A stretch of 36,110 nucleotides of DNA from the NCBI GenBank assembly GCA_016124895.1, contig WGMU01000184.1, forward strand, positions 1 to 36,110, in the 5' to 3' direction. The notes under the pieces were generated by a model. That model saw only the letters and a program-made list of their open reading frames with translations, was not told where the DNA came from and ran no database searches. The translations under genes and the position numbers were made by a program. The DNA comes from a bacterium (GTDB taxonomy: Bacteria > Planctomycetota > Planctomycetia > Planctomycetales > Planctomycetaceae). Numbering within the stretch: position 1 is the first letter of the stretch; every line of letters starts with the position of its first letter. Below are positions 15,111 through 35,346 of the stretch, piece by piece.

Positions 15111-16430
15111 TCAGCATCGGCGCGCGGCAGCGAGATGATCCTTCACAATCTCATGCAGCGTGTCGGGTGACTGCACGAGCACAGTCGGATCGATAGCCCG
15201 TTCCGGTCGCCTGGAATTGCTGCAGCGGTGGCTGTTCTGTTCCTGCGTCTGCAGTTCGTGCCACCAGTCAGGCGGCGTGCGTGTGCCGGCTGCCGCGTGC
15301 CTCACGTTGTCGACGAACCACGCCTGCAGACTCTTCCGGAAGAATCGTTCCCCTTTGTGTTCGCGTGCCGCGAGTGCAATGTCGGCCCATTCCCGCAACA
15401 CAGATACCGGAAATGATTTCACCAGCCAGCGGACGGACCGCAGCTCAAATCCCAGTGACGTCAGTGGTTCAAACAGTGCTGATTCCTGCACAGCCAGACG
15501 AACGGTCCTGCGTCGTCTGCGCTGGAAGTAGCTGCCCCGCTGCAGATGCAGCCTAGACAAGCCACTCCGGCTCGTGCTGAAGAGATCTTCTGCCGATGCG
15601 ACGACGTCAATCTGTTTCAGTCGCCGGATACAGCGAAGCAGCTTCTTCCGCAGGTCTCGGTCGGCGAGTTCTGGTGCAAAGCCCAGTACATCGACCGCCA
15701 GATGCCGCAGCTCAAACCGGGGCGTGCTGGATCGTCGCCAGAACAGCTTGGACAACAGCAGGAACAATCGGCGGCTGGCCGGATCGAGCTGACGATACAC
15801 GTCCAGTTCAAACAGCAGGAACCCGCCGGCCGGCTGGATGAGTTCAAAGAACAGCGGATCCCACGCGAACCGCCAGACGCGGCTGGACTGTGGTTCCAGC
15901 GGCAGACTGTAACTGAAGAACCGCAGACTGACCCGGCGGTGTTCCCGGCGGATCGGGTCATAAAACGCATCGTTCTGATAGGTCACTGTGGACAGCCGCT
16001 GGATGGCGTCAGTGAACTGCCGGTACTGACGTCCGCCGCGGCGCGATTTCTGATCAATCAGGCCGAGCTGCCGCAGGCAGTAATGCGGTGTAGCATAAAG
16101 CTGACCGTCTGAGTCCGGTTGTGCGAGCGTGAGTCCCAGCAGTCCCCACAGATACAGCTCGTCACCGGCCAGCAACCCCAGCGGGCAGGTCACTTGGGCT
16201 CGACCTCGACGCAGATGTCGGTCCGCATCCATGTAAAAGAACTCGCTGTGATGCACCAGATTCGGCTGCAGCGAGCGTTCGGCATGGAGCGGACACAGGC
16301 TGTGTTCCGCCAGCGTCAACTGGCCGGCACCGGTGGCCGTCGACTGCGTGTTGCGTGGTTGAGTTTTCTTCGGGTGGTTCACTCGTCTTTCAGATTCGAT
16401 GTTGCCTTCTGAATCCGTATCACGAGTCAA
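15111..16430 (-). CDS. Plasmid replication initiator, RepA-like (RPA type)
   Basis: Protein of up to 439 residues, probably binding the iterons at 14769-14851 to open the origin. The middle resembles replication initiator protein A families: a segment after about residue 75 (AQVTCPLGLLAGDELYLWGLLGL), a Tyr/Arg-rich helix segment, FFSYSLPLEP, FELDVYRQLDPASRRLFLLLSKLF and FELRHLAVDVLGF, consistent with two winged-helix domains. The C-terminus (DWWHELQTQEQ) is unlike anything I recognise. The longest frame opens with a TTG at 16430; a GTG 16 codons in is also possible, so the start is uncertain. The gene is divergent from parA, with 160 bp between, and points toward the origin. I have not verified the family by search; context (iterons, ParAB) supports it strongly. 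Confidence 0.72.
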   Translation of the reverse strand: MTRDTDSEGNIESERRVNHPKKTQPRNTQSTATGAGQLTLAEHSLCPLHAERSLQPNLVHHSEFFYMDADRHLRRGRAQVTCPLGLLAGDELYLWGLLGLTLAQPDSDGQLYATPHYCLRQLGLIDQKSRRGGRQYRQFTDAIQRLSTVTYQNDAFYDPIRREHRRVSLRFFSYSLPLEPQSSRVWRFAWDPLFFELIQPAGGFLLFELDVYRQLDPASRRLFLLLSKLFWRRSSTPRFELRHLAVDVLGFAPELADRDLRKKLLRCIRRLKQIDVVASAEDLFSTSRSGLSRLHLQRGSYFQRRRRRTVRLAVQESALFEPLTSLGFELRSVRWLVKSFPVSVLREWADIALAAREHKGERFFRKSLQAWFVDNVRHAAAGTRTPPDWWHELQTQEQNSHRCSNSRRPERAIDPTVLVQSPDTLHEIVKDHLAAARRC

Positions 16431-16590: not shown

Positions 16591-17403
16591 ATGACAACGC
16601 GAATCTGTCTGATCAACCAGAAGGGTGGCTGTGGAAAAAGCTCGCTGTGTTTTCACCTGTCCGGTGCTCTGGCCCGGATGGGACTGAGCGTGCTGCTGAT
16701 CGACTGCGACCCGCAGGGCTCGCTCAGCCAGGGGTTTCTCGGCCCGGCGTTTGTTGAGTCACTCGATGCCAGCGACACTCTGGCTGGTCTGTTTGATGAC
16801 CAAGACCGGGTGACGGCACCACTGCTGCAGCCGATCCTGACTCCGATCCCGATGGTGTCTCTGATTCCGGCCAGTCTGCATCTGGCCCGTTACAATACGC
16901 CCCGCCCGGAAACATCCGGCCTGCTGCAGTTCGCGCTGCGTGAGTTCCTGGAGTCGATTGCTGACTTTGACATCGTGCTGCTGGACTGCCCGCCCAATCT
17001 CTATCAATGCACGTGGAATGCCCTGCTGGCGTCTGATCATGTGCTGATTCCTGTGCCGCCGGAGGACTTCGGAACGCAGGGGCTGGGTGCGGTCCACCAA
17101 GCGGTGTCGAGTGCCCGGCTGCTGCACCCGCATCTGAATCTGCTGGGGCACGTGGTCACGCGCTGCGACCGCCGGCTGTTGATTCATCAGGCTTACGAAC
17201 AGAAGCTGAGACAGCTTTACGGGGAATCCGTACTGAACTGCGTGGTTCCCGAAGCGTCGGCATTCAAAGTCGCCCTGGCGTCGCGGCAGCCAGTAGCCGT
17301 GTTCTGTGCCCGGTCAAAAGCAGCCCATAGCATGAACCTGCTGGCCAGCGAGATCCTGCAGCGGGTTCACCGTACGACTCACCAGCAGCGGACGGTGGCC
17401 TGA
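16591..17403 (+). CDS. parA: ParA-type partition ATPase
   Basis: Deviant Walker-type ATPase of 270 residues that segregates the element with ParB. The deviant Walker A motif is NQKGGCGKSS at residues 9-18, with signature lysine K11 and catalytic-loop lysine K16. Walker A' is LLIDCDPQGSLSQG near residue 35, and Walker B is VLLDCPPN near residue 130. There is no N-terminal HTH extension, so this is the short (type Ib or chromosomal-like) form, which normally does not autorepress through its own DNA-binding domain. GAGAGG lies a few bases before the ATG. The parB start codon is 3 bp past the stop, so the two form an operon. It is divergent from rep. Confidence 0.93.
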   Translation: MTTRICLINQKGGCGKSSLCFHLSGALARMGLSVLLIDCDPQGSLSQGFLGPAFVESLDASDTLAGLFDDQDRVTAPLLQPILTPIPMVSLIPASLHLARYNTPRPETSGLLQFALREFLESIADFDIVLLDCPPNLYQCTWNALLASDHVLIPVPPEDFGTQGLGAVHQAVSSARLLHPHLNLLGHVVTRCDRRLLIHQAYEQKLRQLYGESVLNCVVPEASAFKVALASRQPVAVFCARSKAAHSMNLLASEILQRVHRTTHQQRTVA

Positions 17404-17406
17404 GCG

Positions 17407-18318
17407 ATGGCGACGACCCGTGACCTGCTGAGATCCGCTTCCGCCAACATGGCCGAGTCGACCGGTGTTCGTTCCAGACCCAATGTCGCATTGCCAGTTC
17501 CAGTGGCACAGGCACGCGATGCCGGGCGCCGGCTGGTCCGCAATGTCGGCCGCATCGCCATTGATCGAGTCATTCCGGATCCCGATCAGCCACGTCAGGA
17601 ATTCACGGAGGACGCGCTGAACCGGCTGGCAACAAGCATCCGCAGCCGTGGTCAGTTCAGCCCGATCCGGGTCCGCTGGTCTGAGACGCATGAACGCTGG
17701 GTGATTGTGTTCGGAGAACGCCGCTGGCGGGCGGCTCAACGGGCCGGCCTGACTGAGATCGACTGTGTCTTCACCGACGGGGAACTCACGGCAACAGAGA
17801 TTCTCGAACAGCAGTTGATTGAGAACTGCCTGCGGGAAGACCTGCAGCCGCTGGAGGAAGCCCGTGCGTTTGCGCGGCTGATTGAAGTCAACGGCTGGAC
17901 TGGAAAACAACTCGCAGCCGCTCTGCAGGTGCCGCCATCACGCATCACCCGGACGCTGGCGCTGCTGAAGCTGCCGGCAGACATACAGCAGCAGGTGGCT
18001 GCCGGAGAAATTCCCGCACGGACAGCCTATGAGCTGTCCCGCGTCGGGTCGGAAGCCAGTGTCCGGCGACTGGCACAACAGGCAGCCACTGGCCGGCTCA
18101 CCACTGAGGCTGCCGCTGATGCTGTGCGTCGTCGGCAGCGAAAGCACCGACCGGCTTCGCGCATTCTGCGTCAGACATTCGTCACCGGGTCCGGCTGGCA
18201 GATCACAGCAACCGCGCAGGGGACGGGGACGCACAACTATCACGATCTGGAACAGGCACTGCAGGAAACTCTGGACGAAGTCCGGCACCGCATCGCCAAC
18301 GGCATCCGTCTGTTCTGA
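17407..18318 (+). CDS. parB: ParB-type centromere-binding protein
   Basis: CTP-dependent DNA-clamp partition protein of 303 residues. The N-terminal ParB/Sulfiredoxin domain starts near residue 48 (IAIDRVIPDPDQPRQEF) and includes the CTPase box FGERRWRAAQRAGL near residue 103 and the motif ENCLREDLQPLEEARAFARL. A helix-turn-helix follows (GWTGKQLAAALQVPPSRITRTLALLKLP, about 160-187). The C-terminal region (YHDLEQALQETLDEVRHRI) would dimerise. Directly downstream of parA. I found no classic TGTTTCACGTGAAACA parS in the window; candidates are the palindrome at 14622 and the hairpin cluster at 18442-18596. Confidence 0.93.
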   Translation: MATTRDLLRSASANMAESTGVRSRPNVALPVPVAQARDAGRRLVRNVGRIAIDRVIPDPDQPRQEFTEDALNRLATSIRSRGQFSPIRVRWSETHERWVIVFGERRWRAAQRAGLTEIDCVFTDGELTATEILEQQLIENCLREDLQPLEEARAFARLIEVNGWTGKQLAAALQVPPSRITRTLALLKLPADIQQQVAAGEIPARTAYELSRVGSEASVRRLAQQAATGRLTTEAAADAVRRRQRKHRPASRILRQTFVTGSGWQITATAQGTGTHNYHDLEQALQETLDEVRHRIANGIRLF

Positions 18319-19015: not shown

Positions 19016-20491
19016 GTGACAGAACAGAACGCTGACGAGGATCCGGCACCGATGCTGCCGAGACAGAGAAAAGACAAACGATCGGAGCGCCCTCCGGGGA
19101 CTTCCGGCCGGAACGCTGCGATCGCCCACTTCGCCGTGCTTGTTGCGGTCATTCTTGCGGTCTGGGCTATCGAGTGTGAGATCAGGAAGCAAACCGGCCG
19201 CACGGACGGAATCATTGTCAGGACGGGTGAGCTGTCTGATCAGATCAAGTCGACACAGCAGTCGAACAGAAAGGCTGAGGAATCGGTGAATGCGTTACTG
19301 TCAACGTTGACCGAACGACTCGGGTCGATCGAAGACCAGCTCGCCTCCGCGCGCGACCAACTGCATCTGCTCAAGCAGAGTGCGAGTGACCACCGCGCGA
19401 CGATCGCCATCTCTCACGCTCGTGCTCTGCAGGTGAAGAGTCTGGTCGAGGAGGCCCGACAGACCATCGGAGACTACCGGCGTGATCTGCAGACATACAA
19501 CGCACTGCTGGAGCGTACCAGGAATCGGACGGAACCCGATGCCGAGTCCTTTTCGACTGAAGAGCTGACACTGCTCGACTATCACTTCTCAGAGGTGACG
19601 ACGGACAGAACCGACAACTGGAGTCAGCGGCTCACGACGCTGATGACCCCGGTTGATGACATCCTGACTGCAGACAAACAAGGCATCGACATTCCGGATA
19701 CGACATTGACCGAGGTCAGCGAACTGGCTGCCACCATTCAGCAGCGGCACGACGATTTGAAATCGAAGCTGGAATCTCTGCAGGCATTCACGCGGCGCTT
19801 CGCGGCTCCGGAACCGAAGCGTGCCCGCAGTCTGCAAGATCTGGTCGCGGAACACCGCCTGGCGAAAGCCGCGCGGCACAATGAAACTCTCGTGACCCGC
19901 GTCGCCAGCGAACAGGAGCAGACGGATCAGGCCGTCGAGGACGCTGTAGCTGATTCACTGAGAAAGCTGCGGGATGTCCGGATCGTCGGTGAGCAGTTAC
20001 TCGGATCTCTGCAGGCCGACGCCGCCGAACAGGAACACGCCATTCAGGGGCAGCTCTCACGGGAACAGACCGCAGCCCGGAAGCGGGAGGCCGAGCAGAA
20101 GCAGCGGGACGCTGAACTGCTGGCCGAACAGCAGAAGCAGCAGCGCGAGTACGAAGCGGCCCTGCCGGAGATGCGCCGTCTGCTGGTGCCGTTTCTGTCC
20201 AGCGGACACAAACAGTTGAATGGCACCGCATGGGCCGAAGCTGCGAAGCCGGTCCCACTGTCGTATGCCGGCATCCGGGCCAGTGGTGCGCTGGAGAGCA
20301 GTTCCACCGGACAGCAGGCATTTCTGTGGCTGGCTGGCGGTCCTTACAACGACCGGCCGGACGGCATCTTTCCGCAGTACATCGGCGGGGATGTCTCGTT
20401 CAGCCCCGCGCTGCCATCCATCCGCCGGGGCCAGTCTCTACTGAACGAGTTCGGCGAACTGCTCGTCGCCAACGGCCTGCTGGCTCCCTGA
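19016..20491 (+). CDS. Single-pass membrane protein with long coiled coil
   Basis: Protein of 491 residues, family not recognised. A basic cytoplasmic N-terminus is followed by one membrane segment at about 33-52 (AAIAHFAVLVAVILAVWAIE). Residues 70-150 and 240-390 are long heptad-rich helices. The stretch from about 330 to 385 is very rich in Gln, Glu, Lys and Arg (AARKREAEQKQRDAELLAEQQKQQREYEAALPEM), a typical coiled coil. The last hundred residues look globular (AFLWLAGGPYNDRPDGIFPQYIGGDVSF). It could be a structural or scaffold protein of the transfer apparatus; this is inferred only from its place before the kinase and coupling-protein genes. GGGAGA lies before the ATG. A strong hairpin follows the stop codon. 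Confidence 0.75.
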   Translation: MTEQNADEDPAPMLPRQRKDKRSERPPGTSGRNAAIAHFAVLVAVILAVWAIECEIRKQTGRTDGIIVRTGELSDQIKSTQQSNRKAEESVNALLSTLTERLGSIEDQLASARDQLHLLKQSASDHRATIAISHARALQVKSLVEEARQTIGDYRRDLQTYNALLERTRNRTEPDAESFSTEELTLLDYHFSEVTTDRTDNWSQRLTTLMTPVDDILTADKQGIDIPDTTLTEVSELAATIQQRHDDLKSKLESLQAFTRRFAAPEPKRARSLQDLVAEHRLAKAARHNETLVTRVASEQEQTDQAVEDAVADSLRKLRDVRIVGEQLLGSLQADAAEQEHAIQGQLSREQTAARKREAEQKQRDAELLAEQQKQQREYEAALPEMRRLLVPFLSSGHKQLNGTAWAEAAKPVPLSYAGIRASGALESSSTGQQAFLWLAGGPYNDRPDGIFPQYIGGDVSFSPALPSIRRGQSLLNEFGELLVANGLLAP

Positions 20492-20683: not shown

Positions 20684-21748
20684 ATGACCCGTCCGCATCG
20701 ACAACCTGAACAGCAGGGTCACCGCACTGTGCGGGTCGACGGCCGGACGTATCCCGTGATCGATGAATTCCGGGCTGCGGGACGGACATGGCCGGTGCTG
20801 GAAATCCTGGCAGATGGTCCGCGACGGCAACTCAAAGTCTTCGACCGTTTTGCCGGTCGACGTGGCGGGCTGCGGTCACTGTATCTGCTGCCGGTCTCGC
20901 AGGCATCGTGGCAGCACATCGAAATCCTGCGGCGCGTGTCGGCCACCAGCAGTCATCTGCCGGTTATTCTGGAATGCCGGCGCGAAGGCGAGTGGATCGT
21001 CCTGGTGGTCACCTGGATTCACGGGGCAACACTGCGCGAGTACCTCGACGCGGTACGTGCCGGGAAGCATCCCGCATCCAGTCCCACGGAGTCCGTGCGG
21101 CTGGTCCGTGGTCTGGCGCATGCGCTGGCCCAGTTGTACCGCCACCAGCAGATCGTGCATGGCGATCTGCGTCCGGACAACCTGATTCTGGCCAGACGCC
21201 CGACACGTCTGGTGCTGATTGATTTCGGCAGCACCTGGATGATCGAAGCCGCCGCCCGGTCTCATCCGACCGATGGCTGCGTGCCAGCCTATGCAGCACC
21301 GGAGGCACAGCCAGCGGCTGGCCTGGAACATCGCGACTTCCGCAGTGACCAGTTTTCAACCGGGGTCATTCTGTTCGAGCTGCTCACCGGACAGATCCCC
21401 TATGGAGGAGTCGGCGGCCGCGTGCTGCAATTTGCGGATGCAGACACTGCCCGTCAGCAGTGGAAGCCAGCGAGTCAACTCGCCATCGACCGTCGCCGGA
21501 TCCCTGGTCTCATCTGGAAAGCGATCGACGCGCATTTGTGCCAGGCACTGGCGCTCAAACCTGACGACCGCTTTCCCACCCCCGCCGCATGGCTCGACAG
21601 TCTGGATGCCGTGCAGCTCTGCATCACCCAATCCTCTCACGTCGTCGACAGGTCTGCAGTGATGACCGGGGTGATTGACTGGCTTGCCGATTGTCTGAAG
21701 TCATTCCCGCCGTGGTCCTCAACGGACAGGAGGCGTGGGGATGAATGA
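20684..21748 (+). CDS. Ser/Thr protein kinase (conjugation-region, apparently active)
   Basis: Eukaryotic-type protein kinase of 354 residues, cytosolic, with no membrane segment. Key residues are present: Lys51 in RRQLKVF (the VAIK position), catalytic loop IVHGDLRPDN with D161 and N166 (HRD as HGD), D180-F-G, A205-P-E and SDQFSTGVILFELLTG with structural D222. The glycine-rich loop is not obvious (EFRAAGRTWPVLEILADG). It therefore looks competent for catalysis, unlike the paralogue at 22813-23865. The substrate is unknown; the neighbouring pseudokinase, the membrane Cas4-like protein and the coupling ATPase are candidates by position. The start at 20684 lacks a strong ribosome site, and the frame is open to 20543. 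The stop overlaps the start of the next gene by 8 bp, so they are co-translated. Confidence 0.85.
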   Translation: MTRPHRQPEQQGHRTVRVDGRTYPVIDEFRAAGRTWPVLEILADGPRRQLKVFDRFAGRRGGLRSLYLLPVSQASWQHIEILRRVSATSSHLPVILECRREGEWIVLVVTWIHGATLREYLDAVRAGKHPASSPTESVRLVRGLAHALAQLYRHQQIVHGDLRPDNLILARRPTRLVLIDFGSTWMIEAAARSHPTDGCVPAYAAPEAQPAAGLEHRDFRSDQFSTGVILFELLTGQIPYGGVGGRVLQFADADTARQQWKPASQLAIDRRRIPGLIWKAIDAHLCQALALKPDDRFPTPAAWLDSLDAVQLCITQSSHVVDRSAVMTGVIDWLADCLKSFPPWSSTDRRRGDE

Positions 21749-22799
21749 TGCGGCAACGAATCCTCGAACGGGACTGACACCGGACAGCGGCACGCAGCAG
21801 CACGAACCGCCGTGGCTCGGCGTGCATGAACTCACGGAGTTCCTGTTCTGCCCGCGTGCCGGTCTGCTCTGTTATCGCGAACACCGTGATGACACCGGTC
21901 AGGAGTTCGATGGTCTGCCGCGGCTCGACTACCTGCCGGACTTCGACACGATCGACCTGGAAGTCACGCTCCGGCAGATTGGCACGCAGATGCAGAACTT
22001 CATGGCGGGTACGGTTGCAGGTGCATTCGGTCTGCTGGTGTTTGCGGCGTTCGCGGACTGGCGCCCGGCCGCCGCCATCGCCGCCGCGTATGTGATTCCG
22101 CTGCGGTGGTATGCCGGGCAGTGGCGTCTGGTCCGGAGCCTGGAGGAACAGCTCTGCCAGGCTCGGGCGGCGCGCGCTGACGAGCCGTCCCTGCCGCTGA
22201 CTGAGCAGGTCCGTGTCCACTGGTGGTCGCTGCTCAACGCTGGAATGGTCGCGGTCGAATACGAAGACGCGCATCGTGATCCAGAACTGTGCCTGCAGGG
22301 ACGACCGTGGCGTGTGCTGCATCGGGGCTCCCAGAGGATTCCGGTGTTCCGCAAACGGTCGGGTCCGGCAGAACTGCACGAGCAGCATTTCATCCGCATG
22401 ACGGCCTACTGCCATCTTGTAGAAGCCTGCGAACTGGCCGAAGTGCCCTACTCGGTGGTGCTGTTCGGCGATGGCTATGACGGGATCGCCATTCCGCATC
22501 ACCGCGATGACCGGCAGCCGTTGACTGAGGCCCTCGACCGTGCCCGCGCCGTGATCACGGCAGCACGCACCAGTCCCGTGCCACCGGACGGTCCTGCGCA
22601 CCGGAGCCTGTGCCGCAACTGTCCGTGGGGTCAGCCGCGACGCTGCACAGATGACGAAGCTGTTGAGTCCAGCAATGGACTTCCCGGCGAGCCGTTCCTC
22701 ACGCAAGGACCGGACGGCTGCATCTATCGCAGTCCGTGCGGCGATCTGGCGGGGTGGGTGCCGCCGACGGAACGGGCAGAATGGCTCGGACTCTGTTGA
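21741..22799 (+). CDS. Membrane-spanning Cas4-like Fe-S PD-(D/E)XK-fold protein
   Basis: Protein of 352 residues. It begins with the Cas4-type motif HELTEFLFCPRAGLLCYREH (C37, C44). The C-terminal part has C291-x2-C294-x7-C302 (CRNCPWGQPRRC). One N-terminal Cys plus three C-terminal Cys is the 4Fe-4S arrangement of Cas4 and related RecB-type nucleases. The helix EQHFIRMTAYCHLVEA (Q215, Y223) matches the conserved Q-x-x-x-Y motif IV. The expected E-x-K of motif III is IPVFRKRSG (K205), with the acidic residue not visible, so activity is doubtful. A hydrophobic insert at 88-121 should span the membrane, which is unusual for Cas4. No cas genes or CRISPR array are near. AGGAGG lies 7 bp before the ATG. 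A role in DNA handling at the transfer channel is an inference. Confidence 0.55.
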   Translation: MNDAATNPRTGLTPDSGTQQHEPPWLGVHELTEFLFCPRAGLLCYREHRDDTGQEFDGLPRLDYLPDFDTIDLEVTLRQIGTQMQNFMAGTVAGAFGLLVFAAFADWRPAAAIAAAYVIPLRWYAGQWRLVRSLEEQLCQARAARADEPSLPLTEQVRVHWWSLLNAGMVAVEYEDAHRDPELCLQGRPWRVLHRGSQRIPVFRKRSGPAELHEQHFIRMTAYCHLVEACELAEVPYSVVLFGDGYDGIAIPHHRDDRQPLTEALDRARAVITAARTSPVPPDGPAHRSLCRNCPWGQPRRCTDDEAVESSNGLPGEPFLTQGPDGCIYRSPCGDLAGWVPPTERAEWLGLC

Positions 22800-22812
22800 A
22801 GAAAGGCATCTG

Positions 22813-23865
22813 ATGACCAGACCAGCATCGCATTCCGGACAGTCACTCATCCAGCTTGATCCGGGCCGAGTAGAACACGCACTCCGGCGGCTGACGATGT
22901 CCCGCACCGAATTTGCCGACCGGCTCGATGGCACTGTGTCCCGCAATACGGTGATCCGGGCCTTTGCCGGACATCCCATCCGGATTCGCACGGCACGCGA
23001 TCTGGCAAAGGCGCTGCGCGTGGCATCACTGGAGGAACTGTTGCCAGAGGATGACAGCACGGCAGCCGATCAGCCGGAGTACTGCGGCGAATGGGAAGTC
23101 ACATCCCAGCTCAGTGGCTGGATCACGGAAGCCAACGGACTGCAGTACCGCATCTGCCGTCTGCAGCACCGTTTCATTGCTGACCGGCCGGGACGCGGCA
23201 AGGAATACGACCTGCAGAATCCAGTGACTCGCGAACGGGAGCGGATCGAGCACTACCTGTGCCGACACGCGGCCGTGTCCGAAAAGCTGCGCGGTGATCC
23301 GCACTTCGCCGAAACGCTGAACACGTTCCCCGCCGCAGACCGTCAATCGTGGTGGGTGGTGGACCGGCTGATCGAAGGCACGACGCTGCAGGCACGTCTG
23401 CAGTCCGGACCACTCGCTCGTCCCGAACTCGCCCATGTGATGAAGGGAGTCCTGGACAGTCTGGAGGCCCTGCACCGCGCCGGCATCGTGTTTCGCGAAC
23501 TGGCTCCACGGCGCGTGCTGCTGGCTCAGGCGGATGACCGTGTGCTGCTCACGGATTTTGAACTCGCCCGGCTGCTGGATTCACAGCACAGCGTTTCGAC
23601 ATCGTGGCCGGATGGTCCCTACCGCGCGCCGGAACTCGCCAGTGGTCCCGCCGACTTCCGGGTGGACATCTACAGCTGGGCAAGGCTGCTGCTGGAAGCC
23701 GCCACCGGCTCGCTGCCGCCACCGGGCGGTGATCAGGACGCTCTGCTGATGGCGGGGCTGCCCAAAACCGTGTGGCGTGTGGCTGCCGACTGCCTGTCGC
23801 CGTTTCCCCAGGACCGCCCGCCGTCCGTGGCCAGAGTCCGCCGGGCTCTGTCCCGCTGGCGCTGA
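22813..23865 (+). CDS. HTH-pseudokinase fusion protein
   Basis: Protein of 350 residues. Residues 15-75 look like a Cro/XRE-type helix-turn-helix (VEHALRRLTMSRTEFADRL ... VSRNTVIRAFAG ... TARDLAKALRV). From about 95 to the end the fold is protein kinase-like: LHRAGIVFRELAPRRVLL is the catalytic loop, LTDFELARLL the DFG region and GPYRAPELASG the APE motif. The catalytic Asp is replaced by E229, the metal-binding Asn by V235, and DFG reads D248-F-E. So catalysis is unlikely, and it is probably a pseudokinase that binds DNA or a partner. It follows the Cas4-like gene by 13 bp with AAAGG before the ATG and precedes the coupling ATPase gene by 30 bp, same operon. The pair of active kinase and pseudokinase suggests a regulatory couple. 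Confidence 0.75.
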   Translation: MTRPASHSGQSLIQLDPGRVEHALRRLTMSRTEFADRLDGTVSRNTVIRAFAGHPIRIRTARDLAKALRVASLEELLPEDDSTAADQPEYCGEWEVTSQLSGWITEANGLQYRICRLQHRFIADRPGRGKEYDLQNPVTRERERIEHYLCRHAAVSEKLRGDPHFAETLNTFPAADRQSWWVVDRLIEGTTLQARLQSGPLARPELAHVMKGVLDSLEALHRAGIVFRELAPRRVLLAQADDRVLLTDFELARLLDSQHSVSTSWPDGPYRAPELASGPADFRVDIYSWARLLLEAATGSLPPPGGDQDALLMAGLPKTVWRVAADCLSPFPQDRPPSVARVRRALSRWR

Positions 23866-23895
23866 CCGCATTCCCTGCAGCAACGGAACTCAACG

Positions 23896-26514
23896 ATGGC
23901 ACGAGACATCTACCGTCAGGAAACAGGGAATCCCCTCCAGGTCGACCGGCTGGAGTCGCGTCCCGCAAGACTGGCTTCTTCGTGCGCACCACGTCCGGAG
24001 AAGCTGGATGTCGCCGCAGCCTGGAACGTGGTGATCTGGCTGACTGTCACCAGCAGCCTGCTGCTGGCCGCAACAACGCTGCGCTGGCTGGTGAACCACC
24101 GCTGGGATGTCCCGCTGATGGCGTGGTTCGCCGTATGGATGCTGTATTTCTTCTGCCGCTATGTGGTGGCTGTGCTCAGAGGACGGCCAGAGACGATCCG
24201 CCCGTGGCGGCAACTGTATCTGCTGTTCTCGGCCTCCATTGTGATCATGGTGCTTCCGGTTCCGTTCGAGCTGCAGCTTCTGATAACGGCCGCTCTGCTC
24301 ATCCGGCTCACGTGGCGGTTTGCGGAGCACTGGATCGATCTGTGCCTCACGTCCCCGGTGTCCCGCGACATTGCCGTCCGATTGCGGCAGCAATGGAAAG
24401 AGTACGTGACCATCCGGCTGCTGATCGCCACGACTGTCATCGCGGCAGCGGTTCTGACCCGCAGTGCAGCGTTGTGGTCTCTGACGGCGACGCTTGTGAT
24501 GCTGCAGCTTCTCTGGCCGCTGACGAGGAATCGGCGTCAGACGATCGATGCTGCGCGCGAGATGCTCGTCTCGTGGCTGGCCTACAACCGCAGAGACCGC
24601 CGTATTCCGGGTGTTTACTTCAGCACAGCGGGTGGCTACCGCGACCGCTTCCGGCTGACCGGTGCGGCCATCTGCATGATGTCCATCACGCTGGCCCGCT
24701 GGCCTGTGGAATGGCTTCCGGGGTTTCAGGAATTCAGTCCCGTACCGTTCTTCGGTCTTGCCACTTACCTGCTGGATCTTGTGATTCCCGGCGACGGATT
24801 TCAGTTGTCGATCCTGTCCGTCGTGGTCTGGCTCCTGGGATACATACTGCTGCTGGCCTCACCCACGATCATTGTGCTGCTGTTTCCGCTGCTGCTCGCT
24901 TACGGCCCGTTGCGGGAAGCCTGCCGCTATCGGACACAGCAGATCACCGCCGAGCACTGGAAGCCGCTCATCGAACAGATGCGCTGTTCGATCCACCGGA
25001 TTGAACGCGACAGTCTGTATATGGGCCGGATCCTGTCAGACGGCAGCCCGCTGCTGATCCTGCGCGACGTGTTCCGCGAACACGCCCATTTCCTGGGTGA
25101 CAGCGGTTCCGGCAAAACCTCGATGGGACTGAATCCCTGGCTGGAACAGATCATCGGCGGTCCTGAGTGCAGCGTGATCATCGTTGATCTCAAGGCCGAC
25201 TCGCTGGAACTGCTGGCCACCGCCTCCCTGGCGGCTCAGGAGCGTGCCCATCGGACCGGCCAGCCGATGCCCGTCCGGTACTTCAGCAATCAGGCCGGAC
25301 GCAGCACGTTCGCGTTCAATCCGCTGACACAGTCCTGGTTTCAGTCGATGGACCATTACGTGCGGACAGACATTCTGTGCGGCGCTCTGGGTCTGACCTA
25401 CGGCAGCGACTACGGCGAAGGTTACTACAGCTCGGCGAATTCGGCCGTGCTGTCCCATACCATCAGGAAGTTTCCGGACACGCAGACCTTCCGCGACCTC
25501 GCCCGGCGTATCGGAGAAATTGCGATCTCCGCTGACCGCCGGGAACTGCATCCCGAGATCCGCAAGGCGGGCGTGCATGTGCAGACTGTGCTCGACCGGC
25601 TGGGTTCGTTTGACGCGCTGAATGTCACCGGCGCAACGCACTCCCGAGACGTCGTCGATGCGGCCATTGATTTCCGTGACGTCTTCGTGCGTCCGCAGGT
25701 GCTCTACTTTCACCTGTCGTCCACACTGGGACCGGGATCATCGCCGGAGATTGCCCGGCTCGTCGCCTATTCGCTGCTGGCCGCTTCCACGCAGACAGAA
25801 CGCAGGCATCAGGTCTATCTGGTGATTGACGAGTTCCAGCGCATGGTGGCGCAGAACATCGAATACATGCTGCAGCTTGCCCGCAGCATGGGTGTGGGCG
25901 TCATCATCGCCAACCAGTCGATGCAGGATCTCAGGACCGCCCGGGCCGACCTGATTCCGACGATCGAGGCCAACTGCCGCTACCGCCAGTGGTTTGCAGT
26001 CTCGGCACTTGAGGACCGTCAGCGGCTGGTGCAGTCCAGTGGCAAAACCGTCGACATGCTGGAAGGCAAGTCCATCACACAGACGCAGCGGGGGCCACTG
26101 CCCACCACGCAGTGGTCGCAGTTCATTGATGATCGCCTCACCGTCAACGACGTCCTGCTGGCGAGCGACAGCCCGTACCTGAGTATTGTGAAACTGTCAC
26201 GCGGCGCCGGATACGCGCAGTACGGCGGGATGAGTGTCGTGGTGGAATCGAACTACCACATCACGCGGGACGAGTTTGACCGGCGGCGGAACTTCGCCTG
26301 GCCGGGAGTCACCGCTGGAGCCTTTCTTCCCGGAACCCGGACTGCCGTCCCGGCACCCCCACCACGCCCGAGCGGCCCGGTCACATCTACCGAAGTCATC
26401 GGTGGCACAGACGAAACAGCACCCGACAGCGGCAGCATTCTCGACTCATGGATGCAGGATCGGCAGCAGACAGCCCCGCCACGACCGCGTCGCAGGCGGC
26501 ACGGCGGCGACTGA
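23896..26514 (+). CDS. VirD4/TraG-type coupling ATPase with about seven membrane segments
   Basis: Hexameric DNA-pumping ATPase of the type IV coupling family, 872 residues. Walker A is GDSGSGKTS at 401-409, with IIVDLKADSLELL just after. Walker B is VYLVIDEFQRMV near 641-652, followed by MGVGVIIANQSMQDL. It delivers DNA to a conjugation channel. The N-terminal 340 residues contain roughly seven hydrophobic segments (about 43-63, 76-95, 106-122, 125-140, 171-188, 193-210, 305-335); canonical coupling proteins have two. The C-terminal 80 residues are Pro/Arg-rich, probably disordered. It is the last gene of the kinase operon; the low-GC cargo follows. No VirB4 or other channel genes are in the window. 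Confidence 0.88.
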   Translation: MARDIYRQETGNPLQVDRLESRPARLASSCAPRPEKLDVAAAWNVVIWLTVTSSLLLAATTLRWLVNHRWDVPLMAWFAVWMLYFFCRYVVAVLRGRPETIRPWRQLYLLFSASIVIMVLPVPFELQLLITAALLIRLTWRFAEHWIDLCLTSPVSRDIAVRLRQQWKEYVTIRLLIATTVIAAAVLTRSAALWSLTATLVMLQLLWPLTRNRRQTIDAAREMLVSWLAYNRRDRRIPGVYFSTAGGYRDRFRLTGAAICMMSITLARWPVEWLPGFQEFSPVPFFGLATYLLDLVIPGDGFQLSILSVVVWLLGYILLLASPTIIVLLFPLLLAYGPLREACRYRTQQITAEHWKPLIEQMRCSIHRIERDSLYMGRILSDGSPLLILRDVFREHAHFLGDSGSGKTSMGLNPWLEQIIGGPECSVIIVDLKADSLELLATASLAAQERAHRTGQPMPVRYFSNQAGRSTFAFNPLTQSWFQSMDHYVRTDILCGALGLTYGSDYGEGYYSSANSAVLSHTIRKFPDTQTFRDLARRIGEIAISADRRELHPEIRKAGVHVQTVLDRLGSFDALNVTGATHSRDVVDAAIDFRDVFVRPQVLYFHLSSTLGPGSSPEIARLVAYSLLAASTQTERRHQVYLVIDEFQRMVAQNIEYMLQLARSMGVGVIIANQSMQDLRTARADLIPTIEANCRYRQWFAVSALEDRQRLVQSSGKTVDMLEGKSITQTQRGPLPTTQWSQFIDDRLTVNDVLLASDSPYLSIVKLSRGAGYAQYGGMSVVVESNYHITRDEFDRRRNFAWPGVTAGAFLPGTRTAVPAPPPRPSGPVTSTEVIGGTDETAPDSGSILDSWMQDRQQTAPPRPRRRRHGGD

Positions 26515-28141: not shown

Positions 28142-28390
28142 TCCAATGCAATGGACTGGGACTCTGGTTCAGTGATGGCTGCCAGACTGCTCGGCAAGCT
28201 ACAGCAACGATCCCGCGAAAGGCCTTCGCGAGGTGGCTGTTCCAATTCGGTTCCGCAAATACTCTGAGTTGCGCGCAGATTGTGCAGAGAATGGCAGGCA
28301 GTTGAGTTCCCGTCTGTGTCTACTGCTCCCCACTGACGCCGGTTGATTCTGGTTCCGGCGACGCCTGACAGATTCGCAGGGGAGCACACG

Positions 28391-28765
28391 ATGGCCAGAG
28401 GAATTCAATGGTTCATGGAGCGGATGGCCGAACGTGTCGTGCCGATCATCGCTTCTGCCTTCACCAGCACCGTGCAGACGATGGACGCACTCGGCCGGGC
28501 CGAGCAGCAGGGCCGGCTGGAAGAAGCCGCCCGCCACTATGAAGCCGACGGTCAGCCGGCTGTGGCTGAATCGCTGCGACGCAAAGCACTGGAACTCGAT
28601 TCCGCCAACCCCGGCAGCAGTGCCGTGGTGATCTTTGAAAACGTCGCCCGCGATGAATCGCGCATGCTGCCGCCGGCTCTGGAGTCACAGCCGCTCGCCG
28701 GCACACACCGGTCGTCGTCGAAGTCGAAGCAGCGACGCCGGCTGACCGAATCCGATGGTGACTGA
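28391..28765 (+). CDS. Small hypothetical backbone protein
   Basis: Protein of 124 residues, family not recognised. MARGIQWFMERMAERVVPIIASAFTSTVQTMDALGRAEQQGRLEEAARHYEADGQPAVAESLRRKALEL reads as a helical protein with a TPR-like helix pair (residues 35-70). A Ser/Lys/Arg-rich tail follows (SSSKSKQRRRLTE). GGGGAG lies just before the ATG at 28391; the frame extends upstream to 28343 without support. High GC returns here, so this gene resumes the transfer backbone after the cargo insert. The next gene follows after 46 bp. Confidence 0.6.
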   Translation: MARGIQWFMERMAERVVPIIASAFTSTVQTMDALGRAEQQGRLEEAARHYEADGQPAVAESLRRKALELDSANPGSSAVVIFENVARDESRMLPPALESQPLAGTHRSSSKSKQRRRLTESDGD

Positions 28766-28811
28766 TGAAACAACGAATCTGCCGCGAACCAAGTCCGGAG
28801 GATACGAACCG

Positions 28812-29453
28812 ATGCCGAAATCACGCATGGTCACCGACCGCGATTATGAAATCGTCGTGGCACTGACGCAGAAAGTCAGGCTGTTCAGCCTGCGGCAGAT
28901 TGCGGCAGCGTGGTGGGACGGGGAACTGGCCAACACACGCCGCCGGCTCAACGTGCTGGTTGCGGTGCGGCTCGTGCAGCGAATCTCCGTCCGTGCCAGA
29001 ACGCTGCCGGTGCTGACAGCGCCGATCGCCGTCTGGCAGCCGTCTCAGCCCGCACCGGACTTCGGTCACGTGGCGCACCGACTGCAGGACCGCTGGGTCC
29101 GCAAGGCTGTGCGCACCGTCACGGCCTTCATCGCCACCGAGCGCGCTGCCCGGCTGGTTGGTGGTACGGCTCGAGCCTCACTCAAGCAGCCGACTCAGGC
29201 CACTCATGATCTGGGCGTGGCTCAGGTCTGGCTGCACTTCCGCAGCGACTGCCCGGCACGAGCCGACGCCTGGCGCAGTGAAGACCTGATGGCCGACACG
29301 CGCCGCGGGCAGAAGCTGCCCGATGCGTTTCTGGTGGATGCCGCCGGTCACACCGTGGCTGTGATCGAATTCGGTGGCAGTTACGACGCCCGCCGTGTGC
29401 GGGACTTTCACAACGACTGCGCCGTGCGCAACCTTCCCTGGCAGATGTGGTGA
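28812..29453 (+). CDS. Replication-relaxation family protein, type A copy 1
   Basis: Protein of 213 residues resembling the replication-relaxation (Replic_Relax) family of mobile elements, which has been linked to plasmid replication and DNA relaxation. The N-terminal winged-helix-like part is VTDRDYEIVVALTQKVRLFSLRQIAAAWW followed by RRRLNVLVAVRLVQRI (the T-x-R-D ... L ... R-L pattern). The C-terminal half has an EFGG motif in a strand (AVIEFGGSYDARRVRDFHNDCAVRNLPWQMW) and ends like its paralogue at 30170-30856 (RNLPYELW). GGAGG ten bases before the ATG at 28812 was preferred to the ATG at 28755, which overlaps the previous gene. The type B gene follows after 6 bp. Confidence 0.65.
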   Translation: MPKSRMVTDRDYEIVVALTQKVRLFSLRQIAAAWWDGELANTRRRLNVLVAVRLVQRISVRARTLPVLTAPIAVWQPSQPAPDFGHVAHRLQDRWVRKAVRTVTAFIATERAARLVGGTARASLKQPTQATHDLGVAQVWLHFRSDCPARADAWRSEDLMADTRRGQKLPDAFLVDAAGHTVAVIEFGGSYDARRVRDFHNDCAVRNLPWQMW

Positions 29454-29459: not shown

Positions 29460-30173
29460 ATGCCTCCTTCCGAAACCAGCCGTACTGTTGACCTGTCGGC
29501 ACGCGACGTCGTGATCCTCGATCACATCGCACGCTACCGGATCTCAACACCGGAAGTCCTGCACCGTCTGTTCTTTGACGGCAGCCGGGCGAACGCCGTC
29601 ACGAAGGTCACGTCCCGGCTGTGCGATATCCAGCACCTCCGCCGGTTCCCGCTTTATCATCCCAGGACTTATTTCACACTGGGACCGGAAGCCGCGAAGC
29701 GACTGGGACTGCCGGTATCCCGCACTCGTCCACTCGGGCCACAGTCACTGCCGCTGGAATATGGAGTGCTGTCCTGTGCCACGCGCGGCCAGCATCATCA
29801 TCAGCGACTGACGACCCGCGAACTGCTGGAACTGTGCCCGGACCTGCCGGCCGGTCTGACCGAGCAGCCGTGCTGTCTGGACGACTCCGTCACTCCACCA
29901 CGGCTGGAACTGATCCGCGTGGATCTCGGTGGCCGACCCGACCATGTCGCCCGCAAGTGTCAGGCCGACGTGCGCTCCCGCAGCGATGTGGCGTCGATTC
30001 AGCAGCTCATGGCTGCGGGCCGGTTCCGGCTGTTCGTGGTGACCGGGACGCTCGCCAAAGCCGGCTCCATCACCGACTCCCTGCAGCAGCACGCCTGGCC
30101 GGAAGGGTTTCTGATCCAGATGTTTGTTGTGTCGGACCTGCTGCCCCTCATTGCCGGAGTCTCAGACACATGA
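29460..30173 (+). CDS. Replication-relaxation family protein, type B copy 1
   Basis: Protein of 237 residues. The N-terminal winged helix LSARDVVILDHIARYRISTPEVLHRLFF followed by SRLCDIQHLRRFPLYHPRTYFTL fits the replication-relaxation pattern. The C-terminal half (PPRLELIRVDLGGRPDHVARK ... FRLFVVTGTLAKAGSITDSL) matches its paralogue at 30864-31541 (RPRLEFLRVDTAGHGRWDRI ... FCVTILTATLPKAVRIEETL). Its stop overlaps the start of the type A copy 2 gene (ATGA), so they are translationally coupled. A role with the coupling ATPase in preparing DNA for transfer is inferred. A nuclease or relaxase active site is not visible to me. Confidence 0.7.
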   Translation: MPPSETSRTVDLSARDVVILDHIARYRISTPEVLHRLFFDGSRANAVTKVTSRLCDIQHLRRFPLYHPRTYFTLGPEAAKRLGLPVSRTRPLGPQSLPLEYGVLSCATRGQHHHQRLTTRELLELCPDLPAGLTEQPCCLDDSVTPPRLELIRVDLGGRPDHVARKCQADVRSRSDVASIQQLMAAGRFRLFVVTGTLAKAGSITDSLQQHAWPEGFLIQMFVVSDLLPLIAGVSDT

Positions 30174-30856
30174 ACCGTTCAGCTCATCCCGCAGCCACTG
30201 ACGGACTCACGAAGCAGGTGAGACACAGCATGTGGACGCAACGCGACATCGCGATTGTGGAAACACTGACCAGCCGCGTCCGCGTGCTGTCGCTCGCACA
30301 GATCACGACGCTCTGGTGGTCAGCCGATGGTTCAGGACGTGTGGTCCGCCGAAGACTGCGCCGGCTGATCGACGGCGGGCTGCTCGTCTCCACAACAATC
30401 AACTCCATTCCGTTTCCCCAGGTCGAACGGCCGCTGATTGACTGGCATCCCGGTGATCGCGACCCGGACTGTGAACAGGTCGCAGCGTGTGCCCGGTCAC
30501 GGTTCGACTGTGCGACGAGGCCGACCGAGGTGTATCTCGCGTCACGCCGGGCAGCGAATCTCTTCGGCAGTACGTCCGGTCGTCTGCCGCGGTTCGACCA
30601 CATCAATCAGAACCTGCTGCTGTCAGAAGTCTACGTCCTGTATTCGCGCTGCCGGCCGCAGGACGCCGCACTGTGGGTCGGTGGGGAATCTCTGGCCCGG
30701 TGCAGTGACCGTATCCAGACCCCGGATGCGTGTCTCGTCTCCAGCGAGGGCCAAACGACGCGCCTCATCGAATCAGCCGGCGTCCGTGAACCACAGCAGC
30801 TTGAACGATTCCATGAGCACTGCCTCGAACGCAACCTGCCCTATGAACTCTGGTGA
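30170..30856 (+). CDS. Replication-relaxation family protein, type A copy 2
   Basis: Protein of 228 residues, paralogue of the one at 28812-29453. The N-terminal part MWTQRDIAIVETLTSRVRVLSLAQITTLWW aligns with VTDRDYEIVVALTQKVRLFSLRQIAAAWW. RRRLRRLIDGGLLVSTTI is the recognition region. The C-terminus ERFHEHCLERNLPYELW aligns with RDFHNDCAVRNLPWQMW. The strand corresponding to VIEFGG in copy 1 reads LIESAGVREPQQ, so the Gly-Gly is lost, suggesting divergence after duplication. The start overlaps the stop of the preceding gene by 4 bp. The type B copy 2 gene follows after 7 bp. Confidence 0.65.
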   Translation: MNRSAHPAATDGLTKQVRHSMWTQRDIAIVETLTSRVRVLSLAQITTLWWSADGSGRVVRRRLRRLIDGGLLVSTTINSIPFPQVERPLIDWHPGDRDPDCEQVAACARSRFDCATRPTEVYLASRRAANLFGSTSGRLPRFDHINQNLLLSEVYVLYSRCRPQDAALWVGGESLARCSDRIQTPDACLVSSEGQTTRLIESAGVREPQQLERFHEHCLERNLPYELW

Positions 30857-30863: not shown

Positions 30864-31541
30864 ATGATCAGCACAGCACAATCGCATTCGAGCTTCATCC
30901 GACAGACGATTCTGGAGCATCTGGATCGCTACCGGCTGACCACGCTGCCGATTCTGGAGCGTCTTGACGCACTGCAATCGACCCGCCGGACGACCTGGTG
31001 CCAGCAGCTCCACCATCTGCGCCGATCCGGCCGGATCGGCACCGCACCACTGTTCCACAACCGCGACTACTTCTATCCGGCCGCGACCGATCGGCCGCAC
31101 AGTGAGATCTCCAAAATCCGCCACTATGCGATGGCAGCATTCTGCTGTCTGGGCAGCGTGCCACGCGAACGCCTCACAGCCGCTGACTTTCAGCAGCACT
31201 TTCCCGATCTGTATCGGCCGGAAGGGAGGCTGTCCTACTGCATGGAGATCACCAGCGGTCGGCCGCGTCTGGAATTCCTGCGCGTCGACACCGCTGGTCA
31301 TGGCCGCTGGGACCGCATCATCGCCACTGCCCGCAGTGACGTATCCAGTCACCGTGAGCACGCCGCCTTTCAGCGGCTGATCCAGGCCGGCCAGTTCTGC
31401 GTCACGATCCTGACCGCCACGCTGCCGAAAGCCGTGCGGATTGAAGAAACACTGCGCAGCGGCACGCATCCGTCCGACGCGGCGATCCGTGTCACGGCGA
31501 TTCCCGAACTGCTGTATCTGCTGGCTCCGCCGCCAGCCTGA
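30864..31541 (+). CDS. Replication-relaxation family protein, type B copy 2
   Basis: Protein of 225 residues, paralogue of the one at 29460-30173. SSFIRQTILEHLDRYRLTTLPILERLDAL is the N-terminal winged helix, and LHHLRRSGRIGTAPLFHNRDYFY follows it. The C-terminal half reads RPRLEFLRVDTAGHGRWDRIIATARSDVSSHREHAAFQRLIQAGQFCVTILTATLPKA. It is the last gene of the A-B-A-B block. GAGG lies a few bases before the ATG at 30864. The frame is open upstream to 30438 through the previous gene, which is not meaningful. The block is tight (gaps of -4 to 7 bp) and should be one transcript. Confidence 0.65.
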   Translation: MISTAQSHSSFIRQTILEHLDRYRLTTLPILERLDALQSTRRTTWCQQLHHLRRSGRIGTAPLFHNRDYFYPAATDRPHSEISKIRHYAMAAFCCLGSVPRERLTAADFQQHFPDLYRPEGRLSYCMEITSGRPRLEFLRVDTAGHGRWDRIIATARSDVSSHREHAAFQRLIQAGQFCVTILTATLPKAVRIEETLRSGTHPSDAAIRVTAIPELLYLLAPPPA

Positions 31542-32459: not shown

Positions 32460-32478
32460 GGGAATAACAACCAGTCGT

Positions 32479-32508: not shown

Positions 32509-32524
32509 CAGGGAGGATCAACTC

Positions 32525-33965: not shown

Positions 33966-34295
33966 ATGATGGCCAAGGGGCAGAACCAGACTCTCGAATC
34001 ATTCTCTGTCGGCCAGCTCGCCAGACGCTGGGGAGTCAGCCCAGATCGTGTTCGACGACTCATTGATGCAGGTCACATTCCCAGAGCGTTCCGCATCCCG
34101 TCCGCCGGCTGCTTCGGTACGACACTGAAGATTCCCAGAACCGTCATTGAACAACTCGAAGCTGACTGGCAGGTATCGCCCGAGCAACCCAAACGCCGTC
34201 GCGCGCCGAAGCCCGTTCTGGAATTGCGGCACCTGACCGGCATCATGACTGATCCTGAATCCGGCGCTGAATGTCCCGGAGACGGTCATGGTTGA
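33966..34295 (+). CDS. Excisionase-like MerR/HTH_17 DNA-binding protein
   Basis: Protein of 109 residues (or 108 from the next ATG at 33969). FSVGQLARRWGVSPDRVRRLIDAGHIPRAFRIPSAGCFGTTLKIPRTVIEQLEADW (residues 13-68) is a winged helix of the MerR/excisionase type: helix-turn-helix, then a wing with the I-P-x-x-V pattern. Its last 53 bp overlap the 3' end of the convergent integrase gene (34243-35295). Convergent overlap with an integrase suits an excisionase (recombination directionality factor), which bends att DNA for excision. The overlap may also let antisense transcription balance the two. A transcription regulator is the alternative. Confidence 0.7.
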   Translation: MMAKGQNQTLESFSVGQLARRWGVSPDRVRRLIDAGHIPRAFRIPSAGCFGTTLKIPRTVIEQLEADWQVSPEQPKRRRAPKPVLELRHLTGIMTDPESGAECPGDGHG

Positions 34296-35295
34296 GATGC
34301 ACATACCGTCTGGTCGTCCGGGTGTCCGTGTGCCCCATGACTTCAGCCAGTTCGATGTCCGTGACTTTGCCGGCAGCATTCGTCCCGAACGTGTGACGGT
34401 TGCTGTAAAGCACGAGCGACTCTCCAGCTTTTGTCCTGATTCCAACCTTGCGTCTGAGCCGTGCAAACTTACGACAGAAACAGTCTTTCGAATATGGCTT
34501 CCCTTGAGTATTCAGAAAGACATGGTCGTCTGGCGTCTGCGGCTCAGCATTCAGTCGCTCACAAAGCCTGAGAATCGGGGCGGGCAACGGGATGATGCGT
34601 GGTCGCGGATTCCGCTGCTGCGTGATGGTCTTGTGGTCCGGAAGAATCCAGAGGCCACTGTCCAGGTCCACCCACTCCCAGATGAGCGTTCGGACTTCTT
34701 TGGGCCGACAGCCCGTCAACCGCAGGGCCAGCAGCACACGACGAAATCGAACATCTGCTCCACGGAGCAGACTCTGGAACTCGTTCGGGGTAACGATGCG
34801 AGTCCGTTCCCGAGCCGCCGGCTTTTCGTAGTCGCGAATCGGGTTGTCCGTCAGATACTCGTTCCTGCAGGCCCAACTGAAGACCGTCTGCAATGTCGCA
34901 ATGGTGTCCCGGATCGTGGTCGGGCTGTATTTCCCCGAACTGTTGAGGACGCGATCGATCTTCGAGAGGTGCCGTTTGGTGACTTCACTGACTCTCGGCT
35001 GGACATCCAGAGATCGCAAGGCCCGAGTGAGACGACTGCGATAGCCGGTGTAGGTCGCTTCCGTCTTGCGAGCCTGAATGTCGTCGAGAAACTCGTCGCA
35101 GAGTTGAGCAAGCGAGGCGTCAAGCCATTCGCTGCTGGCAGACTTTCCAGCCTGCTGCTCGCGAAGAATCTTCGTGAGCTTCTTCTTCGCGGCGGTGTAA
35201 TCCTGGTCGAGGTAATGGAGCTTTCCTCGGACCTTCTTGCACCAGAATCCGCTGGCCTGATGCAGCCACGGTTCATTCGACTTTTTCTTTGGCAT
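34243..35295 (-). CDS. Tyrosine-type site-specific integrase
   Basis: Site-specific recombinase of 350 residues. The N-terminal arm- and core-binding domains (about 5-155) precede the catalytic domain. Catalytic residues: R197 (TGCRPKEV), K222 (DHKTI), R300 in LVLYSNRHTFGT, H322 (GHTD) and nucleophile Y331 (RRYVHL). The first His of the H-x-x-R box is replaced by Tyr297 (YSNR). AGGAGA lies 7 bp before the ATG at 35295, which decides the start over 35328. The gene ends overlapping the excisionase-like gene and begins about 130 bp from the tRNA-Pro 3' fragment (35429-35470), its likely attachment core. Confidence 0.93.
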   Translation of the reverse strand: MPKKKSNEPWLHQASGFWCKKVRGKLHYLDQDYTAAKKKLTKILREQQAGKSASSEWLDASLAQLCDEFLDDIQARKTEATYTGYRSRLTRALRSLDVQPRVSEVTKRHLSKIDRVLNSSGKYSPTTIRDTIATLQTVFSWACRNEYLTDNPIRDYEKPAARERTRIVTPNEFQSLLRGADVRFRRVLLALRLTGCRPKEVRTLIWEWVDLDSGLWILPDHKTITQQRNPRPRIIPLPAPILRLCERLNAEPQTPDDHVFLNTQGKPYSKDCFCRKFARLRRKVGIRTKAGESLVLYSNRHTFGTNAAGKVTDIELAEVMGHTDTRTTRRYVHLNHDRLRDIQRRIQDQS

Positions 35296-35346
35296 TGGTT
35301 TCTCCTGACCGGGGGAATCAAGAAGCAACCAATGCGGGAGGGCTGG

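Follow-up and report, generated by a model that had tools for sequence, protein, structure and literature searches.

What do a kinase-fold protein, a pseudokinase and a Cas4-like protein do beside a DNA pump? The question is raised by a 36,110-nucleotide stretch of planctomycete DNA (WGMU01000184.1, hereafter the window), which makes up contig C58 completely; the genome, G000, measures 8.13 Mb. An initial annotation placed four genes there, all on the + strand and with gaps of -8, 13 and 30 bp, and these positions and gaps were confirmed. The genes encode a kinase (Kin), a membrane Cas4-like protein, a pseudokinase fused to a helix-turn-helix (HTH) domain (HTHpk) and a VirD4/TraG-type ATPase. 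They were read as one tight operon in which phosphorylation gates DNA transfer. Here we describe them as parts of two linked modules, a trio (Kin, Cas4-like, HTHpk) and a pump module (ATPase, RR1, RR2). We give about even chances to the reading that the trio is the regulatory module of a planctomycete mobile-element family and that HTHpk controls the pump operon through operator-like sites. The features on which the argument turns are:

20684..21748, + strand: Kin, kinase-fold protein without predicted transmembrane segment (Pkinase 2.6e-18, residue counts in 27 homologues, StkP alignment, hydropathy).
21741..22799, + strand: Cas4-like protein, RecB/Cas4 fold with inserted hydrophobic helices (profile matches, model, residue counts, hydropathy).
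22813..23865, + strand: HTHpk, Cro/C1-type HTH fused to a predicted pseudokinase (Pkinase 4.2e-17, residue counts, Pfam HTH in relatives, model).
23896..26514, + strand: ATPase, VirD4/TraG-like motor with an apparently polytopic N-terminus (TraG-D_C, hydropathy, alignments).
28333..28346, no strand: weak operator-like CTGAC-N4-GTTGA with imperfect arms, 45-58 bp before small140 (read by eye; the palindrome scan did not flag it).
28391..28765, + strand: small140, small conserved protein, commonly the first gene of the pump operon (family in 29 loci, alignment).
28755..29453, + strand: RR1, PF13814 Replic_Relax-type with a PDA...EFGG motif (1.1e-5; 14/25 members match PF13814).
29460..30173, + strand: RR2, paralogous protein, directly before ATPase in most relatives (without a family match of its own).
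30156..30856, + strand: RR1', RR1-like paralogue, start approximate (RR1 model, 91 bits).
30876..31541, + strand: RR4, RR2-like paralogue, start approximate (locus maps, family clustering).

The four genes form a conserved neighbourhood. On contig C182, G000 has a second element in which each of the four has a homologue (34-41% identity); its layout is different, Kin> <Cas4 <HTHpk >small140 >RR1 >RR2 >ATPase >RR1' >RR4. Of the class, 397 genomes were sampled; ATPase was found in 44, HTHpk in 26 (spread over nine families) and the Cas4-like protein in 25, all of which fall among the 26. Homologues of the kinases were not found mostly without the coupling gene, and the set is present in more than one genome. 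ATPase accompanies HTHpk in 23 of the 26 genomes vs 2.9 expected (Fisher 4e-22, treating genomes as independent, which they are not). In the other three (G432, G500, G515) the contigs stop at or inside the block. Within the family to which the window belongs, HTHpk scores at least 170 bits in 16 of 170 genomes, and the next score down is 96 bits.

The tight operon does not hold as a general arrangement. The codirectional four-gene order was seen in the window and in no other of the 37 loci with the whole trio, so this operon is a local variant. Kin> <Cas4 <HTHpk is the layout in 29 of the 37, and the commonest layout overall adds >small140 >RR1 >RR2 >ATPase on the HTHpk side. Locus maps show the pump genes faced by HTHpk in 23 of the 29 and by Kin in 4, and in 2 the contig does not show which. 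44 of 46 loci have HTHpk before Cas4 on one strand and at most 700 bp away; only the window and L159 depart from this. In the window, ATPase and small140 are separated by a DeoR-like gene and other sequence of lower GC3 (G+C content at third codon positions). Map, co-variation and layout counts exclude duplicate retrievals of a locus (L010, L013, L016, L019, L027, L144, L151, L160, L161) as well as what remained of contig C182 (L093, L094), while near-identical distinct loci (such as L015, L018) were retained.

Distance correlations over 21 loci separate the two modules. They are highest within the trio (Kin-Cas4 0.92, Kin-HTHpk 0.92, Cas4-HTHpk 0.90) and within the pump module (ATPase-RR1 0.96, ATPase-RR2 0.95, RR1-RR2 0.93), and fall to 0.76-0.83 across modules, with permutation maxima of 0.23-0.35. 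Shared descent inflates all of these values, and the informative part is the contrast between modules. The members of the trio, whose mean pairwise identity is 33-40%, stay together. It was present as a whole in 16/16 loci with an ATPase of at least 600 bits and at least 5.5 kb upstream; four of these (L079, L081, L084, L087) had been fetched via HTHpk, and without them the count is 12/12, window included. ATPase is visible in 26 of 34 HTHpk loci; in the other eight the contig, 3.4-12.3 kb long, stops within or beside the block.

HTHpk is a predicted pseudokinase, a kinase fold with lost catalytic residues. Its model aligned with Stk1 (9ymt) over 243 residues at Z 25.8 and a root-mean-square deviation (rmsd) of 2.5. 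Lysine K130 is kept in 33/34 members and is placed by the model on the strand that precedes the long N-lobe helix. The HRD Asp is replaced by Glu in 33/34 (E229 in the window) and the DFG Gly by Glu or Asp in 34/34 (DFE in the window), and the catalytic Asn position holds Asn in 0/34. The initial annotation had listed Glu, Val and DFE at the catalytic positions; Glu and DFE were borne out, but the aligned Asn position is R234 and not Val. The fused HTH was borne out as well. Pfam gave no HTH match in the window protein, HTH_31 was detected in 9 and HTH_3 in 8 of 16 members scanned, and the model has four N-terminal helices. No hydrophobic segment was found in HTHpk by hydropathy.

Kin was initially described as a kinase with K51, D161, N166 and DFG intact. 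H159, D161, P164, N166, D180 and G182 are kept in 27/27 homologues, and the DFG Phe is Tyr in 7/27. K51 is a lysine in only 4/27 and falls on beta2 in the StkP alignment, and it was rejected as the catalytic lysine. At the beta3 (VAIK) position, in the register taken from the same alignment, Lys occurs in 0/27 (Q 11, H 6, L 6, Y 2, E 1, M 1). Catalysis by Kin cannot be assumed, because the beta3 lysine is absent. R47, kept in 24/27, would lie near the place of the substitute lysine of WNK1. By these alignments Kin and HTHpk show complementary losses, the beta3 lysine in one and the catalytic Asp and Asn in the other.

These residues bear directly on the proposal that DNA transfer is gated post-translationally, by Kin phosphorylating either ATPase or an accessory protein, with HTHpk as an allosteric partner. 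The set is conserved as a neighbourhood, the trio and ATPase co-occur, the correlation across modules is still 0.76-0.83, and Kin keeps H, D, P and N plus the D and G of DFG throughout. However, the trio co-varies more tightly internally than with ATPase, the beta3 lysine is missing from every Kin, an HTH was detected in at least 9/16 HTHpk members, and ATPase occurs without the trio in 8/10 remoter loci. We consider gating by phosphorylation unlikely. The HTH domain, the position of HTHpk next to the pump operon and the operator-like sites described below point to control of transcription rather than to a pump that is phosphorylated.

The third member of the trio was annotated as a membrane Cas4-like Fe-S protein. 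It matched TIGR00372 at 5.6e-4, below the model cut-off, and PADLOC Cas4d at 2.4e-5; its profile found no match among solved-structure sequences. The predicted model (predicted local distance difference test score, pLDDT, 83) aligned with 7mi5_A over 168 residues (Z 15.8, rmsd 2.7) and with 8d3l_I over 178 (Z 13.1, rmsd 3.8). The four cysteines are conserved (C36 33/33, C290 30/31, C293 29/31, C332 29/30). Two hydrophobic peaks at approximately residues 65-135 are found in 27/31 full-length members, and one in the window protein. The fold, the cysteines and the inserted hydrophobic helices agree with a membrane Cas4-like protein with a putative Fe-S cluster, but the catalytic Asp and Glu are gone. 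The Asp position, assigned like the other nuclease positions by motif and not by residue-level structure alignment, is W in 26, R in 4, F in 3 and V in 1 and never Asp; the Glu position holds Glu in 0/31, and the Lys position holds K in 12/31, window included. From these residue patterns we infer that the protein holds a cluster and is nuclease-dead.

Candidate control sites were found between HTHpk and small140. In one group of such regions, palindromes with a gap of 4 and arms of at least 5 occur in 8/12, whereas shuffles gave 2.8 on average and never more than 7 (0/300 reach 8); other gap sizes occur in 2-5/12. A recurrent core, GAC-N4-GTC or a near variant, lies approximately 80 bp or less from small140 in six of the eight palindrome regions. 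L024 has a shorter palindrome core. In L077, where HTHpk is not divergent, a palindrome of this kind still starts 35 bp before small140. A further figure of 7/15 omits L148 and the window, and its p-value is post hoc. In another group a block, GAGATTG...TGGAGC...TAAT...CAGTCCGATTC, is conserved in nine HTHpk-small140 regions. The last 11 bases of this block, with at most 2 mismatches, match the window 24 times vs a mean of 14 (0/100 shuffles gave as many); these matches are scattered, none lies at the promoters in question, and they were not used.

The reading that we give even chances would work as follows. The pump module, small140-RR1-RR2-ATPase plus RR1'-RR4, would contain a VirD4-type motor in a polytopic membrane protein that probably moves the DNA of the element, and the control trio would set when this module is expressed. 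HTHpk would bind operator sites before the pump operon. Its pseudokinase half would sense a signal, which may be a nucleotide at the retained lysine or may come from Kin, through contact or phosphorylation. The membrane Cas4-like protein, whose gene usually follows that of HTHpk directly, would anchor or tune HTHpk. This proposal draws on gene content, conservation, co-variation, residue patterns, the folds modelled for HTHpk and the Cas4-like protein, and conserved intergenic sites. From these we infer the binding of the sites by HTHpk, the activity of Kin and the transfer of DNA.

Several observations weigh against it. The palindrome shuffles preserve base content only, the palindrome of L087 is another sequence, those of L083 lie elsewhere, and the core is shared by only 6/8. 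The nine-region block was computed without a null, and the related loci L014, L015, L018 and L028 are not independent. A perfect palindrome and the first half of the nine-region block are both absent from the window; inverted repeats before its Kin and small140 include no site like those of the relatives, and L148 likewise has no perfect palindrome. RR1, RR2 and their paralogues may be DNA-binding too and could own the operator-like sites found here. In L036, L145, L150 and L155 it is Kin and not HTHpk that faces RR1-RR2-ATPase. Finally, eight of the ten remoter ATPase loci with at least 5.5 kb upstream have no trio gene, and family models found none there even at E 10, although seven of the eight retain RR1 or RR2. 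The trio is present in the other two, L036 and L092, the latter fetched via HTHpk.

The nature of the pump bears on a second alternative. The window ATPase has a Walker A motif (GDSGSGKT) and a Walker B motif (IDEFQ) and matches TraG-D_C (4.3e-6) and TrwB_AAD_bind (3.4e-5) in Pfam. TraG-D_C was matched in 21/21 homologues and T4SS-DNA_transf in 3/21; the ATPase profile found no match among solved-structure sequences. The first 420 residues contain 3 to 7 hydrophobic peaks, 6 or 7 in 15/21 (Kyte-Doolittle, not dedicated topology prediction), and the protein looks polytopic. VirB4 (PF03135) was detected in 0/10 element-bearing genomes and in 2/387 genomes of the class vs ATPase in 44/397, and TrbI/VirB10 in 0/11 genomes. 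The motor half of the annotation as a VirD4/TraG-type coupling ATPase is therefore sound, but a role as the coupling protein of a VirB-type channel is doubtful because the protein looks polytopic and VirB4 is nearly absent.

Relaxases were searched with PF03432, which was found in 0/10 genomes, and with PF08751. TrwC-type relaxases (PF08751) are present in 7/11 element-bearing genomes and lie, in G000, on another contig than the window. A canonical VirD4-type gene (PF02534 or PF10412) was found near TrwC in 3/3 loci inspected, of 12 TrwC places; these are L163 (G000:C56), L164 (G204:C32) and L165 (G207:C4), and VirB4 was not found in those genomes. Because canonical VirD4 genes stand beside TrwC in genomes where VirB4 was not found, the absence of PF03135 does not exclude conjugation. 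This element would not be alone in conjugating without a recognised VirB4.

ATPase could then be an ordinary coupling protein that uses the channel and relaxase of other elements, with the trio regulating ATPase. The TrwC relaxases and the VirD4 genes near the three inspected, the universal TraG-D_C match, and G261, one of the two VirB4 genomes, which also carries ATPase and an HTHpk fragment, agree with this. The scarcity of VirB4 and TrbI/VirB10 and the 6 or 7 hydrophobic peaks of most ATPases do not, VirD4 having two transmembrane helices. We regard this alternative as possible but somewhat improbable. A bolder proposal is that planctomycetes own a VirB-independent DNA-transfer apparatus with a polytopic VirD4-family pump at its base, under the control of a kinase/pseudokinase pair with complementary losses and a nuclease-dead membrane Cas4 as sensor. 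The VirD4 genes beside TrwC and the VirB4 of G261 weigh against it, and we consider it unlikely. If true, kinase-fold signalling would be wired into the decision of a mobile element to move.

The window is one of a family of mobile elements, plasmid-like or integrating, whose named records are nearly all planctomycetes. Its remaining features of this kind are:

15111..16430, - strand: putative replication initiator, RepA-like by our own reading (no Pfam/NCBIfam match; family in 7 loci).
16591..17403, + strand: ParA (AAA_31 9.5e-31).
17407..18318, + strand: ParB (ParB_N 9e-22).
19016..20491, + strand: coiled-coil protein with one N-terminal hydrophobic segment (family in 19 loci).
34243..35328, - strand: tyrosine recombinase (Phage_integrase 1.2e-17).

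Across loci ParB was found in 15, ParA in 14 and RepA-like genes in 7. Relatives of the tyrosine recombinase occur in L028, L032, L074 and L078, and a serine recombinase family, of which one member was typed by Pfam, in 11 loci. A relative of the coiled-coil protein comes after ATPase in the trio-less loci L006, L023 and L025. The ends of the window were compared and do not overlap, and they do not support a circular form. A query built from three ATPases (A1) retrieved 35 loci from a collection with one genome per species; by record title 30 are planctomycetes, 3 only 'bacterium', 1 Bdellovibrionales (L022) and 1 Bacillota (L041, a weak match). The window ATPase as a single-sequence query matched 2/199 genomes, G000 included, in an even sample of the phylum, and as sole query found no match in plasmids and none in the genome contigs collection. 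The L017 ATPase found no match in plasmids. The L017 HTHpk matched 150 plasmid records, and the ten matches listed are weak (23-27% identity) and mostly Ser/Thr kinases where annotated. Among viral contigs ATPase had no match and HTHpk one weak match (L162).

Other genes of the window and its relatives were noted. RR1 was rejected as an active nuclease, as PDA...E is present and no Lys follows the E. Small proteins of two families (32070-33282, +) recur downstream of the pump operon, one family in 27 loci and the other in 22, and an MT-A70 methyltransferase (33323-33934, +; 2.8e-18) has its family in 18 loci. Near the RepA-like gene a conserved 227-aa protein (12626-13309, -), without Pfam or NCBIfam match, has relatives in six loci counting the window. 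An RND efflux cluster of heavy-metal type occupies 1927-11576 (-) with HlyD-type (3.7e-36), OEP (1.7e-35) and ACR_tran (2e-261) matches; the metal specificity is our own putative reading. The second element of G000 contains a group II intron reverse transcriptase/maturase (L005:4781-6553, -; RVT_1 5.1e-34). Between ParB and Kin, L015 has an ArdC-type antirestriction protein (2367-3650, +; PF08401, 8.1e-9; family in six loci) and L008 a 505-aa protein without Pfam match (1815-3329, +; family in eight loci).

A third alternative takes the trio as a defence or exclusion module, like the PD-T4-6 or MADS kinases, that is merely linked to the pump. PADLOC, which shows no cut-offs, gave PD-T4-6 as best match of both window kinases with mad6 among the matches, and mad8 (2.3e-10) as best match of ATPase; MAD6 is also the top NCBIfam match of both kinases. 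However, the MAD6 scores are 100 and 73 bits vs a cut-off of 460, the trio behaves as backbone and not as variable cargo, and the Cas4 catalytic Asp and Glu are lost. We find a defence role quite improbable.

To our knowledge conjugation of planctomycetes is little studied. The element family may offer the class a notable path for gene transfer, because its VirD4-like motor is present in 44/397 genomes vs 2/387 for VirB4. It is also a testable case of degenerate-kinase signalling, in which two kinase folds, each lacking what the other keeps, stay together with a Cas4 fold that has lost its catalytic Asp and Glu. The initial annotation knew of no described conjugation system with this set, and the open-licence literature searched gave no description of it either; subscription journals and preprints were outside this scope, and the result is weak evidence of absence.

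The separate parts do have likenesses. Kin resembles the WNK kinases in having no beta3 lysine, and differs in that its candidate substitute, R47, is Arg and not the Lys of WNK. ATPase shares its motor domain with VirD4/TraG proteins and differs in its many N-terminal hydrophobic peaks and in a class from which VirB4 is nearly absent. With MADS (MAD6, MAD8) and PD-T4-6 the trio shares kinase-fold proteins, and ATPase has mad8 as its best PADLOC match, all by profile models only. In a comparison that covers MAD6 and MAD8 of the MADS proteins, the scores fall far short of the cut-off wherever there is one, and the trio is mobile-element backbone. The Cas4 family includes solo-Cas4 and MGE-Cas4 (mobile genetic element Cas4) in the accessible part of PMC5704561, in which 'planctomyc' and 'kinase' have 0 occurrences, and an inactivated Cas4 is known as the nucleocapsid protein TP1 in that of PMC4625639. 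The protein described here shares the fold and the four conserved Cys, whereas it has inserted hydrophobic helices, has lost Asp and Glu family-wide and is encoded by a gene tied to a pseudokinase gene. In the accessible sections of PMC13037476, pIP501 TraF and type VII EssB/YukC are membrane pseudokinases of a secretion complex. As with HTHpk, their pseudokinase fold goes together with a VirD4-like coupling protein in one transfer system. HTHpk differs in having an HTH and no hydrophobic segment and in accompanying Kin and a Cas4-like protein. Within the sections available, pIP501 TraF is the closest precedent found for a pseudokinase in a transfer system.

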